Positions 21,345-25,629 of a stretch of DNA of 64,000 nt are shown piece after piece. The position numbers and the translations under genes are program-made. Position 1 is the first letter of the stretch. Each line of letters starts with the position of its first letter. The notes beneath the pieces are model-generated. The model saw only the letters and a program-made list of their open reading frames with translations. It searched no databases and was not told the origin of the DNA. The stretch comes from Kribbella catacumbae DSM 19601 (GTDB lineage: Bacteria; Actinomycetota; Actinomycetes; Propionibacteriales; Kribbellaceae): assembly GCF_000372465.1 (NCBI RefSeq), contig NZ_AQUZ01000009.1, positions 1 through 64,000 on the forward strand, in the 5' to 3' direction.

Positions 21345-22630
21345 CAGCCGGCGACGCGCTGCAGTTCCGCTTCCACGATCGCCTTGACCGCCTTGATCTC
21401 TCCTGCCGGATCGGTGCCGTTCTTGATGATCCGGTTGAGCGCGTCGGAGTACGCAGTACCGGATTTCGGTGTCCAGAGCAACGGCGTCTGGGCGTGCCCG
21501 TTCTCGTTGACGAACTTGACCGCGTCGGCGGCCGGACCGGACTTCAGCTTCTCCGCCTTCTCGGCCAGGCTCTTGCGGGCCGGGATGTGGAAGCCGAACG
21601 ACTGGGCCCAGTCGAGCTGCTTGTCGGCCTGGTCCACCCACAGCCACTTGATGAACTTCTTGGCGGCATCGACATTCTTCGACTTGGCGTTGACCGCGGA
21701 GCCGTAGGCGCCGACCGGCACGCTCGGCGCGCCCGTCGAGCTGTTCAGCTTCGGCCAGGGCAGTACGCCGAAGTCGTCCGGGAACGCCTTCTGGATCTGC
21801 GGGAGAGTCCACAGCCCGGTGAACTGCATCGCCGTCAGCCCCTGAGTGAAGGCCGACGGGTCAGACCAGTCGGTCGGTGCCCCGAGCAACAAGGCCTTCG
21901 AGGTGAACAGCTCCCGCAGCTTGCGCAGCGATTCGACCGCGGCCGGGTCGTCGAAGCCGAAGGTGTTGTCTTCCTTGAGGTAGTCGAGCCCGGCCGACCA
22001 GAGCGCAGGACCACCGAGGATGCCGACGCCGCCGTCGTTGCCGACGAACAGGCCCTTGACCTTGTCGGTGGTCAGCTTCTTGGCCGCGGCGAGCAACTCG
22101 TCGACCGTCGTCGGCGGCTGGATGCCCGCGGCCGAGAGCAGGCTCTTGCGGTAGACGAGCAGCTGCATGTCCGTCACCTGCGGAATCGCGTACAGCTTGC
22201 CCTGGTACGTCATCCGCGCGATCAGCGACGGCGTGAAGTCGGACTTGGCGTCGCCGAGCAGGTCGGTCAGGTCGACCACCTGACCGCCTTTGACCATGTC
22301 GATGCTGGGGCCGTTGCCGTACTCGAAGACGTCCGGCCCACCATCGGTCAGCAGCGCCGAAGCGGCCTTCTTGTCATAGTCGCCCGGCGACCACTGCACG
22401 GTCACGGTGGCGTCGGCGTACTCCTTGGCGTACCGCTCGACGGCCTGCTGGGTGCCGGCTTCGCCGTACTGGTGGTACCACTGCGACAACGCCGGCTTGC
22501 TGCCCGAGGAGCCGCTGTCCGGCGACCGGCCTGTGTTGGATCCACAGCCCGCCACTGCCATCGCGGCCATCCCGCCGGCTCCGATCAGGAACTGTCGCCG
22601 GTTGAATCCGTTGCCACGAGCACCCGACAT
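21344..22630 (-). CDS. CUT1 extracellular solute-binding lipoprotein
   Basis: 428 residues. The N-terminus has a twin-arginine type signal (FNRRQFLIGAGG) and a lipobox AVAGC at about 25-29, so it is probably exported folded and lipid-anchored. The rest is a family 1 sugar-binding fold with the PDVFEYGNGPS strand and ALWSAGLDYL region. GGAGGT precedes ATG 22630. It heads the operon binding protein, permease, permease, FAD oxidase. The sugar is unknown. It lies divergent from the MFS leader. Confidence 0.94.
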   Translation of the reverse strand: MSGARGNGFNRRQFLIGAGGMAAMAVAGCGSNTGRSPDSGSSGSKPALSQWYHQYGEAGTQQAVERYAKEYADATVTVQWSPGDYDKKAASALLTDGGPDVFEYGNGPSIDMVKGGQVVDLTDLLGDAKSDFTPSLIARMTYQGKLYAIPQVTDMQLLVYRKSLLSAAGIQPPTTVDELLAAAKKLTTDKVKGLFVGNDGGVGILGGPALWSAGLDYLKEDNTFGFDDPAAVESLRKLRELFTSKALLLGAPTDWSDPSAFTQGLTAMQFTGLWTLPQIQKAFPDDFGVLPWPKLNSSTGAPSVPVGAYGSAVNAKSKNVDAAKKFIKWLWVDQADKQLDWAQSFGFHIPARKSLAEKAEKLKSGPAADAVKFVNENGHAQTPLLWTPKSGTAYSDALNRIIKNGTDPAGEIKAVKAIVEAELQRVAG

Positions 22631-22732
22631 CTCGACGTACCTCCGCAGGTTTTCGGCGCGGTCCCACAGCCGCGCACCGATCCTCCGACCCTACGACCGT
22701 CGAGGGCTGACGTCGTGCCATTCCGCGCCGTG

Positions 22733-22777
22733 AATAATCACCTGCTCGACTCGACTTCCTCGGGTAGGCTGCGCGCC
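22733..22777 (+). promoter_or_regulatory. Promoter of the leader-ORF/MFS transcript
   Basis: TAGGCT at 22765-22770 is a good actinobacterial -10 box; seven bases later comes the leader ATG, so the transcript probably starts on it. The -35 region (about 22742) is poor, but an AT-rich patch, AATAATCA (22733-22740), lies just upstream. Weak -35 plus AT patch is what WhiB7-dependent promoters look like; that link is inferred. Confidence 0.55.
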
Positions 22778-22798
22778 ATGTTCGATCCCCGTGCCTAG
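22778..22798 (+). CDS. Leader ORF, six codons (MFDPRA)
   Basis: ATG TTC GAT CCC CGT GCC TAG, probably translated leaderless from the TAGGCT promoter. Its stop codon lies inside the 5-prime arm (22794-22803) of a long hairpin whose 3-prime arm covers the MFS ribosome-binding site. This is the geometry of a translational attenuator peptide such as those before erm and cat genes. Sequence is not matched to any leader I know. Confidence 0.55.
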   Translation: MFDPRA

Positions 22799-22863
22799 AG
22801 AGCGCTCGCCACCGAGCCCGTTCATCGCACCCCGCTCCACTGACGGAGCCGGGGCTCTCTAGG
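22794..22863 (+). promoter_or_regulatory. Attenuator-like hairpin covering the MFS ribosome-binding site
   Basis: CCTAGAGAGC (22794-22803) pairs perfectly with GCTCTCTAGG (22854-22863). Inside, CCCC-GCTCC (22830-22838) pairs with GGAGC-c-GGGG (22845-22854) around ACTGAC. The MFS ribosome site AGGAG (22861-22865) is half buried in the outer stem, and its ATG follows nine bases later. A ribosome stalled on the leader would open the outer stem and free the site. Confidence 0.7.
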
Positions 22864-22874
22864 AGCGTCTTCAC

Positions 22875-24089
22875 ATGCCTGGCACAACGCGTGCCGGGAG
22901 CTACCGTGACGTCCTGCTGCTGCCGAACGCGCTGCGCACCTTCGTGCCAGCGCTGTTCGGCCGCTTGGCGTACGGCCTGCTCCCGCTGTCTGCCCTCTTC
23001 ACCGTCCACCAAGCCACCGACTCGTTCGCGACTGCCGGCCTGGCCGTCGCCGCCTTCGGCTTGGCCTCCCTCTCCATGCCACTCAAGGCGCGCCTGGTCG
23101 ATCGCTTCAGTCAGCGCCGAGTCCTCCCGCCCCTGGCCGTGCTCTGCGCATCAGGTCTCGCCGTTGTCGCCTCAGCCGGTACTGCGAACGCCGTGGCGCT
23201 GGTGATCCTCGTCGGCGTCGCCGGCCTCTTCGCGCCACCGCTCGGCCCGTCGATGCGCGCCACCTGGCGGCTCATCACCGACAACTCCGACCTCAAGCAG
23301 CGCGCCTATGCCCTCGACTCGATCTGCGAGGAGTCGCTGTATCTGGCTGGACCACTCATCGCGGGACTCCTGATCAGCTTCTGGTCCGCGCCGGTCGCGT
23401 TGAGTTGCGCCGCTGTACTCATGGTCGGCGGCACCCTCGGAATGGTCGCGACGCCGTTGGCGCGGCAGGTCGCTGAGCAAAAGGCCGGCGGCCGCTTCCT
23501 GGATCCCGGCCCGCTGCGCGTCGCGGGTCTGCGGCGGATCCTGCTGGTCATCCTCTTCGTGGCCGGAGGCATCAGCGTCGCCTATGTCTGTGTGGCAGGC
23601 GTCGCGCAGGATCAGGGCCTTGCAGGCGCGGCCGGCTTCGTGGAAGCGGGCATTGGCCTGGGCAGTGTGATCGGCGGGCTCACGTGGGACCGCCGTACAC
23701 ACACTCGCTCCCATTGGCATCACCTGGCCGGCCTGATCGCGCTGCTGGCAGTCGGTCTGCTGGCCGCGTCGCTGGCCACGAACCTGATCGTGCTCGGCGT
23801 GGTGATGGCCGTCGGTGGACTGGCGGTAGCTCCGCTCTTCGTCGTTTCCTACCTGGCCGCCGACGACCTGACCCCACCACACCAGCGCACCGAAGCCAGT
23901 ACCTGGATCAACACCGCCAACAACCTCGGCAGCTCGGCCGGCTCGTCGTTGGCCGGCCTGGCGATCGACCGCACCACGCCCTCCCACGGCTTCCTCGCCG
24001 CGGGGGTTCTCCTCGCAGTACTGGCGCTGGTCAGTTCTGCGCTGCGAGCACCTTCTCCATCGAGTCGAAGAAGCCGTTGTAGCCCATGA
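22875..24089 (+). CDS. MFS exporter (12 TM), probably attenuator-controlled
   Basis: 404 residues from ATG 22875. About twelve hydrophobic segments. PLKARLVDRFSQRRVLPP near residue 70 is the cytoplasmic loop 2-3 motif, and a conserved arginine-rich loop follows. The type resembles actinobacterial exporters of the YfcJ/drug-efflux class. The last 59 bases overlap the convergent SRPBCC gene, giving a short Ser/Arg-rich tail. Leader ORF and hairpin upstream suggest induction by something that slows translation, such as a ribosome-targeting antibiotic. Substrate unknown. Confidence 0.88.
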   Translation: MPGTTRAGSYRDVLLLPNALRTFVPALFGRLAYGLLPLSALFTVHQATDSFATAGLAVAAFGLASLSMPLKARLVDRFSQRRVLPPLAVLCASGLAVVASAGTANAVALVILVGVAGLFAPPLGPSMRATWRLITDNSDLKQRAYALDSICEESLYLAGPLIAGLLISFWSAPVALSCAAVLMVGGTLGMVATPLARQVAEQKAGGRFLDPGPLRVAGLRRILLVILFVAGGISVAYVCVAGVAQDQGLAGAAGFVEAGIGLGSVIGGLTWDRRTHTRSHWHHLAGLIALLAVGLLAASLATNLIVLGVVMAVGGLAVAPLFVVSYLAADDLTPPHQRTEASTWINTANNLGSSAGSSLAGLAIDRTTPSHGFLAAGVLLAVLALVSSALRAPSPSSRRSRCSP

Positions 24090-24468
24090 TCGTGGCGTCG
24101 ATCTGCTCCTGGGTGAAGTCGCCGGCGAGCTGAGTCAGCGTCATCTCGGTGCCACCGGCGACCTCTTCGAACACCACGACGATCGGGACGTCGGAGGGGT
24201 TCGCGGGGTCGTCGGTCATCGTGAAGGCCAACCGCTCGGGCGGGGCGACCTCGGTGTACTCACCGACCCAGTTGATCTGGTGGCCGTCGGGCAGTTGCAT
24301 GATGGCCTTCCAGGCGCCGCCGACGCGGACGTCCAGGGCCAGCGTGTCCAGCGGTACGTCGACCGCGTCGGTACCGAACCAGACGGAGAAGTGCTCCGGC
24401 TTGGTCCACGCCTCGAAGACGAGCTCGCGGGGTGCGTTGAAGGTGCGGGTGACAACTACGTCAGACAT
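24031..24468 (-). CDS. SRPBCC/AHSA1-type protein
   Basis: 145 residues from ATG 24468. Start-related fold: VVVTRTFNAPRELVFEAWTKPEHFSVWFG in part (APRELVFEAWT), then GEYTEVAPPERLAFT and a C-terminal helix GYNGFFDSMEKVL. Eight bases overlap with the ArsR gene upstream, so the two are co-translated. Such ArsR-AHSA1 pairs are widespread in actinobacteria with unknown ligand. Overlaps the MFS gene on the other strand. Confidence 0.9.
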   Translation of the reverse strand: MSDVVVTRTFNAPRELVFEAWTKPEHFSVWFGTDAVDVPLDTLALDVRVGGAWKAIMQLPDGHQINWVGEYTEVAPPERLAFTMTDDPANPSDVPIVVVFEEVAGGTEMTLTQLAGDFTQEQIDATIMGYNGFFDSMEKVLAAQN

Positions 24469-24826
24469 CGTCGTTCTCCTTGGCGGGGTTGCTCTTGGGG
24501 TTGGTCTGTTGCAGCCGGTCAAGATAGCTGCCGAGCGATTCGAAGCTGTCGGCCCAGAACTTGGCGTAGTCGCCGATCCAGTCGGACGCCGCGGCCAGCG
24601 GTCGCGCATCCAGCCGGGCCGGCCGGTACTGCGCGTCGCGCCCCCGGCTGACGAGCCCGGCGGCCTCGAGCACCCGCAGGTGTTTCGACACCGCCGCGAA
24701 ACTCATCGCGAACGGCTCCGCGAGCTGCCCGACCGTCGCCTCACCCTCCGACAACCGAGCGAGCATCGCCCGCCGAGTCGGATCCGCAAGAGCCGCAAAC
24801 GTGCGACTGAGCTGGTCGGTCGACAT
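24461..24826 (-). CDS. ArsR/SmtB-type regulator
   Basis: 121 residues from ATG 24826 with AGGAG seven bases upstream; TTG 24844 is in frame but less likely. Winged HTH: FAALADPTRRAMLARLSEGEATVGQLAEPFAMSFAAVSKHLRVLEAAGLV (in part; ADPTRRAMLARL, SKHLRVLE). No Cys or His metal cluster, so it is not a metal sensor of the classic kind. First gene of the pair with the SRPBCC protein. The perfect inverted repeat upstream is its likely operator. Confidence 0.92.
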   Translation of the reverse strand: MSTDQLSRTFAALADPTRRAMLARLSEGEATVGQLAEPFAMSFAAVSKHLRVLEAAGLVSRGRDAQYRPARLDARPLAAASDWIGDYAKFWADSFESLGSYLDRLQQTNPKSNPAKENDDV

Positions 24827-24874: not shown

Positions 24875-24945
24875 TAGCCGACCCAGGCAGATTGTCAAGC
24901 GCGCGGGTGGGCAGGGATGGCCGGAGGTGCCGATTTGGTTACGGA

Positions 24946-24965
24946 GTATATCCGGGTATATATAC
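24946..24965. promoter_or_regulatory. Putative VapBC operator/promoter
   Basis: GTATAT (24946-24951) and ATATAC (24960-24965) form an inverted repeat in an unusually AT-rich patch 21 bp upstream of vapB. Toxin-antitoxin operons are normally repressed at such a site by their own complex. Confidence 0.5.
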
Positions 24966-24985
24966 AGGCGCATATCGTTGTCTAC

Positions 24986-25195
24986 ATGAAGACGATGATC
25001 GACCTGGATGACGAGGCGCTCGCGCTCGCGGCGAAGGAGTTGGGGACCGTGACGAAGAAGGACACAGTGAATGCTGCGCTGCAGTTCGTCGCCCGGCGGC
25101 GTGAACGCATCGAGGCGCTGCTCGACGACCCGTACGCGTTGGGTGTCGGGCCGGACATCGCCGACCCCGACATCATGCGAGAGGCCGATCGTTGA
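24986..25195 (+). CDS. vapB: VapB-type antitoxin
   Basis: 69 residues from ATG 24986. Starts MKTMIDLDDEALALAAKELG and continues TVTKKDTVNAALQFVARRRER (in part), the usual VapB ribbon-helix-helix pattern with TKKDTVNAAL. The acidic C-terminus (DIADPDIMREADR) is the toxin-binding tail. Followed by the PIN toxin with a TTGA overlap. Together they form a type II toxin-antitoxin pair. Confidence 0.9.
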   Translation: MKTMIDLDDEALALAAKELGTVTKKDTVNAALQFVARRRERIEALLDDPYALGVGPDIADPDIMREADR

Positions 25196-25629
25196 GCACG
25201 GTGACCGCCGTCGGCAAGCTCTACCTGGTCGACACGTCGGCGCAAGCCCGCTCCGGCCATCCCGCCGTGCGGACCGTGATCGCCGGTCTGATCGTCGACC
25301 GTGCGGCCGCGACCTGTGTGACGGTCGATCTCGAGGCCGGCTACTCGGGGCGAAGTCTGGAGGATGTTCAGAACATCGCCGCACGCCGGAAGTCTCTGTA
25401 CACGGTCCTGCCTGTCACCGAGGCCATCGCGGAACGAGCCCGCGAGGTGCAGGTTCGGATGGCGGCGCGCGGTCACCATCGCGCCGCGGGGGTGGTGGAC
25501 CTACTCACCGCAGCCGTCGCGGAGCAGCATGATGCGGTGATCCTGCACTACGACACGGACTTCGAGCACATCGCGGCGACCACCGGTCAGCCGCATCTCT
25601 GGGTCGCACCTCGCGGGTCACTCGACTAA
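25192..25629 (+). CDS. vapC: VapC-type PIN-domain ribonuclease toxin
   Basis: 145 residues from TTG 25192, which overlaps the vapB stop (TTGA); GTG 25201 is a possible alternative. The PIN acid cluster is present: D14 (YLVDTS), E48 (DLEAGY), D103 (VVDLLTAA) and D121 (HYDTDFEH). VapC toxins cleave tRNA or rRNA in growing cells and are held by VapB. The site looks intact. Confidence 0.9.
   Translation: MSTVTAVGKLYLVDTSAQARSGHPAVRTVIAGLIVDRAAATCVTVDLEAGYSGRSLEDVQNIAARRKSLYTVLPVTEAIAERAREVQVRMAARGHHRAAGVVDLLTAAVAEQHDAVILHYDTDFEHIAATTGQPHLWVAPRGSLD

Follow-up and report, generated by a model that had tools for sequence, protein, structure and literature searches.

A conserved six-codon upstream ORF, probably leaderless, as a candidate translational attenuator of a probable drug exporter in Kribbella, Actinoplanes and Streptomyces

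The leaders of cat and erm genes are translational attenuators, and ermSF of Streptomyces fradiae is said to carry a further leader of the erm type. The ermB leader, according to excerpts of one account (PMC8274638), has 27 codons and a ribosome site of its own, with stalling at the tenth codon. Very short upstream ORFs (uORFs) with the sequences MR[I/M], MIN, MK[L/Q] and MAGN precede the ARE-ABCF genes cplR, vmlR, vmlR2 and lsaA of Firmicutes; at cplR, stalling on the uORF frees the Shine-Dalgarno sequence (SD), which is held in a terminator hairpin, with transcription attenuation added (excerpts of PMC10201436). The uORFs of whiB7/wblC act through termination, as far as the available part of PMC11550727 goes, and in mycobacteria leaderless short ORFs with contiguous cysteine codons respond to cysteine supply (Canestrari et al. 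2020, as related in a part of PMC9031893).

The stretch of DNA analysed here (the window) comprises 64,000 nucleotides of Kribbella catacumbae DSM 19601 (contig NZ_AQUZ01000009.1), in which a six-codon uORF precedes a gene encoding an MFS exporter. As in the translational attenuators of the erm type (excerpts of PMC8274638), a leader ORF is combined with a hairpin, here a predicted one, over the ribosome site of the downstream gene, which is a resistance gene in erm and a putative one here; unlike ermB, the uORF has six codons and no ribosome site, and no peptide is fixed in Kribbella. With the cplR leader, as portrayed in the excerpts of PMC10201436, it shares a very short uORF and a predicted anti-SD element, but it differs from that terminator-bearing leader of a Firmicute ABC-F gene in having no intrinsic terminator in the scanned part of the window, six codons, a probably leaderless start and an MFS target, and in that the uORF itself is predicted to be the anti-SD. 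With the mycobacterial attenuators it would share a leaderless short ORF controlling a downstream gene, although the signal of those, in the partial account available, is cysteine supply through contiguous cysteine codons. No earlier description of the six-codon leader was found in the open-access literature, and an older one may exist in subscription journals; the passages available from the Corynebacterium resistens genome paper (PMC3350403) mention leader peptides of erm(X) and tet(W), and no six-codon leader. The class of attenuator is a known one (erm, cplR), whereas the variant in which a leaderless six-codon uORF serves as the anti-SD appears to be undescribed.

In our view the arrangement is likely to act as a translational attenuator ahead of a gene for a probable drug exporter: a leaderless uORF would itself be the anti-SD strand, and a ribosome held on it would expose the exporter start. 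The mRNA would begin at, or about one base from, the uORF start codon, and a ribosome would load on the uORF without a ribosome site. Once the six codons had been completed, the uORF would pair with the exporter SD, or fold right against it, and the SD would be closed; the pairing part of the uORF would be the last codons and stop in Kribbella, and codons 2-3 in Streptomyces and in those Actinoplanes leaders that encode MTSTPP. An inhibitor of early elongation or termination would hold the ribosome on the uORF and block this pairing, and the exporter would be translated. That the uORF is translated, that an arrested ribosome is the trigger and that antibiotics, presumably ribosome-targeting ones, are the inducer are steps that we infer, as are the leaderless start of the transcript and drug export by the MFS protein. 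Such an attenuator would be compact, testable and common to genera of three actinobacterial families, ahead of an uncharacterised exporter family, and a leaderless uORF acting as sensor would bring together, in one element, leaderless translation and intrinsic drug tolerance, both of them traits of actinobacteria.

The features of the leader and exporter in the window are:

22733-22738, + strand: AATAAT patch at a WhiB7-promoter-like position, -45 to -40 relative to the uORF start (sequence)

22765-22770, + strand: -10 box TAGGCT, separated by 7 nt from the uORF start codon, predicting a leaderless transcript

22778-22798, + strand: six-codon uORF (MFDPRA, then stop), probably leaderless (sequence; six codons in all 18 Kribbella-group orthologues)

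22794-22803, + strand: 5' arm of the main stem P1, the anti-ribosome-site arm (from the end of codon 6 through the stop codon into the bases after it)

22804-22817, + strand: small hairpin P2 directly behind the uORF stop, 22804-22808 with 22813-22817 (fold)

22830-22853, + strand: GC-rich hairpin P3, CCC.GCUCC / GGAGC.GGG (fold and alignment)

22854-22863, + strand: 3' arm of P1, overlapping the exporter SD (sequence and fold)

22861-22865, + strand: AGGAG, the exporter ribosome site (sequence; GGAG invariant in all 18 Kribbella-group leaders)

22875-24089, + strand: MFS exporter of 404 aa (PF07690; ORF list, Pfam)

A first-pass annotation of this stretch had reported the TAGGCT seven bases ahead of ATG 22778, the MFDPRA ORF with its stop in a stem arm, a perfect 10-bp stem, and an AGGAG ahead of the MFS gene overlapped by the 3' arm, all of which were borne out by direct reading: the uORF codons are ATG TTC GAT CCC CGT GCC TAG, the TAG (22796-22798) lies within the 5' arm CCTAGAGAGC, and this arm is the exact reverse complement of the 3' arm GCTCTCTAGG. 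The second, GC-rich hairpin reported between the arms was found as P3 (22830-22832 and 22834-22838 with 22845-22849 and 22851-22853 in the fold), together with the additional small P2 right after the stop; P3 is seen by eye in only part of the Kribbella leaders. The leader of the window has a minimum free energy of -43.5 (z -2.28), and 4 of 200 shuffles fold equally well. Taken alone, the window sequence is only moderately unusual; it is conservation among orthologues, not the fold of the window by itself, that places the leader beyond chance.

No Rfam covariance model matched positions 22600-23000 of the window up to E = 5. A ligand-binding riboswitch or RNA thermometer, to which the six-codon ORF would be incidental, would agree with a structured leader ahead of a transporter and with the large variable hairpin of the Streptomyces leaders, but we hold it to be very improbable, given this lack of an Rfam match and an ORF that persists while structures differ between clades. 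Transcription attenuation, intrinsic or Rho-dependent, with the ribosome on the uORF deciding, is likewise a reading that we regard as improbable. No intrinsic terminator was found in the scanned interval 22650-22950 of the window, and by eye the aligned leaders have no U-run in common; some Streptomyces leaders do have CCCCUUUU (four U) behind a stem, the terminator scan having covered the window only, and uORF-controlled termination is the mode described for whiB7/wblC in the available part of PMC11550727.

Conservation of the leader was examined among exporter orthologues. Of 58 related genomes searched (37 belong to the window's genus), 18 have a close exporter orthologue, the window genome being one of these; the other 17 are 65-84% identical to the window's protein, and the remaining listed matches in these genomes are paralogues of at most 34% identity. 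All 18 Kribbella-group orthologues have the leader, consisting of a start codon (17 ATG, 1 GTG) 6-7 nt behind TANNNT, exactly five more codons, and a stop (17 TAG, 1 TGA) that lies in or near a stem running into the exporter ribosome site. Twelve peptide sequences occur among the 18: MFSPRD (4), MFDPRA (3), MSRMPH (2), and nine that occur once each. Among 38 genomes of the genus, in 37 of which the exporter itself was sought, strong matches to R1, a covariance model of the leader with only 6 pairs, were confined to these 18, which it matches by construction, having been built from them. Four weak R1 matches (L096-L099, E 0.002-0.66), considered as second copies of the leader in Kribbella, show by eye no layout of -10 box, uORF and exporter and were rejected as chance. 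The genome recorded as Streptomyces sp. SID13031 (L018, L044) groups with Kribbella and has exporter pieces 78-86% identical to the window's protein, so its title looks wrong; its exporter copy L018 is broken into two frame-shifted pieces with the middle missing, and the leader is intact.

In a named genome collection, 27 loci were found in Kribbella, Actinoplanes/Paractinoplanes, Streptomyces, Microtetraspora, Leifsonia and Salinibacterium, with exporters 50-55% identical to the window's in Actinoplanes/Paractinoplanes and 36-39% in Streptomyces and Microtetraspora. Five Actinoplanes loci of this collection encode MSQTPP and a stop after a -10 box. The genus Paractinoplanes has the exporter orthologue in 12 of 67 genomes, and 11 of the 12 Actinoplanes/Paractinoplanes orthologues, these five included, have a six-codon ORF (MSQTPP 5, MTSTPP 4, MTSTPH 1, MTPARH 1); the twelfth, L138, has no leader ORF upstream. 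A Streptomyces clade with six-codon leaders was first seen in a search of 396 genomes of the phylum, and its exporter is present in 26 of 121 Streptomyces genomes at E 1e-80; an ORF of six codons ending in Ala-TAG precedes all 26 and also L060 (27/27), and the peptides are mostly MFLLLA (10), MYLLLA (5) and MFLSLA (3). A strict form of the leader pattern (gap of exactly 7) had 16 matches in the 121 genomes, every one before the same MFS gene: 13 are the known loci, and the remaining three copies, with long inserts or in two frames, had not passed the protein cut-off. In a second clade of Streptomyces/Microtetraspora loci the ORF has seven codons (MFIVMFI-like) and stands 6 nt behind TANNNT in 10 of 10. 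No leader ORF was found at the Leifsonia (L049) and Salinibacterium (L047) loci, and none of 28 other MFS paralogues has such an ORF in the 260 nt before it, even when 3-12 codons and a gap of 4-9 nt are allowed. The pattern of TANNNT, 6-7 nt, RTG, six codons and stop is present in 56/56 leaders of the three genera, which are the loci gathered as leader-bearing (18 Kribbella, 27 Streptomyces and 11 Actinoplanes, L138 left out), versus 6 of 11200 sequences obtained from these stretches by mononucleotide shuffling. The ORF and stop codon, the conservation of which had been proposed as a check in the first-pass annotation, are kept in the leader-bearing relatives.

A distance of 6-7 nt from the -10 box is that expected when transcription starts at the start codon. 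The start codon lies 6-7 nt behind TANNNT in all 56 six-codon leaders, and 6 nt behind it in all 10 of the seven-codon form. A leaderless uORF is therefore probable, a point absent from the first-pass annotation. WhiB7-type promoters have an AT-rich patch just above a poor -35. The poor -35 already noticed upstream of this uORF was confirmed, no sigma-70 consensus promoter being found in a scan of 22650-22950. AAA occurs within -48 to -38 in 7 of 18 Kribbella leaders (9/1080 control windows), 7 of 27 Streptomyces leaders (22/1620) and 0 of 11 Actinoplanes leaders (9/660); the leader of the window, with AATAAT at the WhiB7-like position, is not among the seven of Kribbella. The A-rich patch proposed at the WhiB7-like position is thus present in a subset of Kribbella and Streptomyces leaders, but not in Actinoplanes, and the fit of a WhiB7/WblC-type promoter to this subset is suggestive only.

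Although their sequences differ, the leaders of each clade are predicted to have uORF bases that pair with the exporter SD region or abut it. In most Kribbella leaders the stop region CUAGAG would pair with bases running into the SD; the CUAGAG:CUCUAG form of P1 is missing from L008, L016 and L017, the last two of which show another pairing by eye, and L015 lacks GCG behind the SD. In the six-codon Streptomyces leaders the predicted partner of codons 2-3 (UUCCUC or near) is the SD itself, GAGGAA, and further helices are nested inside this pairing. The MTSTPP leaders of Actinoplanes have CCUCGA opposite UCGAGG; in the MSQTPP leaders AUGUC-CAGAC lies opposite a stretch immediately ahead of the SD, GUCUGGACAU or a variant of it. 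Comparison and folding of the leaders bring out the uORF, its fixed length, its place behind the -10 box, and a predicted pairing that persists through sequence change between genera.

The mean pairing probability between SD and uORF (nt 1-25, or 1-28 in the seven-codon form; 60 SD-keeping shuffles per sequence) was 0.71 in Kribbella versus 0.32 in shuffles, 0.95 versus 0.25 in six-codon Streptomyces leaders, and 0.84 versus 0.26 in the seven-codon form. It was 0.00 in the five MSQTPP leaders of Actinoplanes, where the stem ends a few bases before the SD. An SD-sequestering structure that overlaps the uORF is thus predicted in general, and more weakly for the MSQTPP leaders. Total pairing of the SD was raised over shuffles in the six-codon Streptomyces leaders (0.95 versus 0.70), and not in Kribbella (0.72 versus 0.84) or in the seven-codon form (0.84 versus 0.82); according to these predictions, the special feature in Kribbella would be only the partner of the SD, not its overall pairing.

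Compensatory changes were sought by exchanging partners between sequences and counting, among 2000 permutations, those that pair as well as the sequences' own partners. The main stem P1 of Kribbella showed no covariation (1125/2000 permutations as good). No permutation was as good for P2 of Kribbella (0/2000), to which two hairpin lengths in the genus contribute because the windows were fixed, or for Actinoplanes (0/2000), and five of 2000 were as good for the uORF and 3' region of Streptomyces. Tests against the 3' region without the SD were not significant for nt 10-24 of the Streptomyces uORF (345/2000) or its stop region (512/2000), nor was the test of the seven-codon form (358/2000), and the RNAalifold consensus structures were weak (-3.76 with 6 pairs, -2.29 with 10 pairs). 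Between genera, the leader's own SD region beats the mean of foreign genera in 18/18 Kribbella, 25/27 Streptomyces and 11/11 Actinoplanes leaders, and beats every single foreign one only in 9/18, 3/27 and 3/11, the number of independent events in this comparison being small because related sequences are not independent. Compensatory change in the stem, asked for in the first-pass annotation, is therefore absent from P1 in Kribbella; P2, Actinoplanes, Streptomyces and pairings across genera show signs of it. The attenuator proposed there stands on the conserved uORF, the predicted SD-occluding structure and the absence of an intrinsic terminator from the scanned leader of the window, but not on P1 covariation in Kribbella; conservation, the inner hairpin, Actinoplanes, Streptomyces and the between-genera comparison are what argue for it at the sequence level.

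The leaders differ in whether the uORF peptide appears to be selected, by a crude spanning-tree count of changes. The five MSQTPP leaders of Actinoplanes have 6 synonymous and 0 non-synonymous changes, and codon 6 of the Streptomyces six-codon leaders specifies Ala in 27/27 through three codons; both speak for a uORF that is read as protein. The changes in Kribbella (21 non-synonymous, 8 synonymous), in the whole six-codon Streptomyces set (12 and 6), in the seven-codon form (4 and 1) and in the MTST leaders (2 and 2) seem to demand no particular peptide. Sequence-specific stalling as in erm leaders is unlikely in Kribbella because the peptide varies while length and position are fixed. With counts that are mixed across clades, ribosome occupancy is the best description of the proposed mechanism, to which the peptide may contribute in some of them. 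Ala, Ser or Thr as penultimate residue is the context of phenicol-type stalling. A, S or T is found at residues 2-5 in 14/18 Kribbella, 8/27 Streptomyces and 11/11 Actinoplanes uORFs by hand count, and a phenicol context was rejected as a common denominator.

Tentatively, and with somewhat less than an even chance of being right, the attenuator may be a gauge of ribosome occupancy and not a peptide sensor: with a leaderless uORF of only six codons that also serves as the anti-SD strand, any delay of a ribosome near the uORF start (initiation, early elongation or termination) would expose the exporter site, whatever the peptide. If so, actinobacteria would have kept a geometry and replaced its sequence in at least three lineages, and one exporter family would respond to a wide range of inhibitors that act early in translation, with no need of drug-specific stalling peptides. 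The 56 natural six-codon leaders form a ready library in which the roles of peptide and of mere occupancy in arrest could be told apart, and leaders of this kind could serve as reporters for unknown ribosome inhibitors from soil bacteria.

The variable peptides of Kribbella and the A-rich patch that some leaders have at the WhiB7-like position would also suit a constitutive dampener, in which uORF and hairpin would limit exporter translation and tie it to the general translation rate, with no drug-specific arrest and with control by a WhiB7-like promoter. This we consider unlikely: a plain SD hairpin needs neither the fixed six-codon uORF that is kept in 56 leaders nor the synonymous-only change of MSQTPP. 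An attenuator responding to amino-acid starvation, as leaderless uORFs with cysteine codons do in mycobacteria (part of PMC9031893), might be read from the three Leu codons that Streptomyces leaders often have, but is exceedingly improbable, there being no amino acid common to the clades and peptides that differ between them and, in Kribbella, also within.

The downstream protein, annotated as MFS in the first pass, is confirmed as such by Pfam (MFS_1, PF07690) and is a probable drug exporter. Of six proteins tested against NCBIfam, the window's and five relatives, none reaches a cut-off, and a profile of the Kribbella exporter found no related sequence in the PDB at E 0.001. Identity with the Cmx/CmrA chloramphenicol exporters (NF033135) was rejected, the window protein having no match to this model among the matches listed and the Actinoplanes homologue L040 scoring 20 against a cut-off of 400. 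The Streptomyces homologue L062 matches five plasmid records, in four of which no gene is named there and in one of which it is called 'MFS transporter'. In a quick maximum-likelihood tree of 85 MFS proteins, which has several long branches, the leader-bearing Kribbella and Actinoplanes groups are neighbours, and the two Streptomyces leader clades lie apart, each beside leader-free relatives; a single ancestral origin of the leader and repeated origin are both compatible with this tree. The exporter of Microtetraspora fusca NBRC 13915 (L056), with its MFIVMFI-type leader, falls inside a Streptomyces clade, reflecting either transfer or a misnamed record. By eye, eight leader-free relatives (L064-L066, L068-L070, L074 and L075) keep a repeat, ATGGTACGTAT...GTTATACGTA, close before the start, with the apparent start of a divergent LacI-type regulator nearby, and seem to have repressor control in place of the attenuator.

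The Cmx/CmrA-family loci of Streptomyces were also considered as carriers of the same leader and rejected, 0 of 30 having an ORF of 3-14 codons. In a search up to 30 codons, 11 of the 30 (L140, L141, L146, L147, L149, L150, L152, L153, L156, L158 and L166) have a leaderless-type leader ORF of 19-23 codons, mostly beginning MSSPES or MSSPEA, 6-7 nt behind TANNNT. These leaders resemble the six-codon ones in their TANNNT spacing and in preceding an exporter of the MFS family, but are of about 20 codons with a conserved N-terminus, and five such exporters form a separate clade of the tree.

In the window, the exporter ORF and a convergent ORF (24031-24609) overlap by 59 bases at their 3' ends (24031-24089), and a small gene pair resembling antitoxin and PIN-domain genes was recognized by eye at 24917-25629. 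At L032 and L033, the -10 box of the exporter directly follows the end of a gene whose product resembles, at its C-terminus, that of the second gene of this pair.
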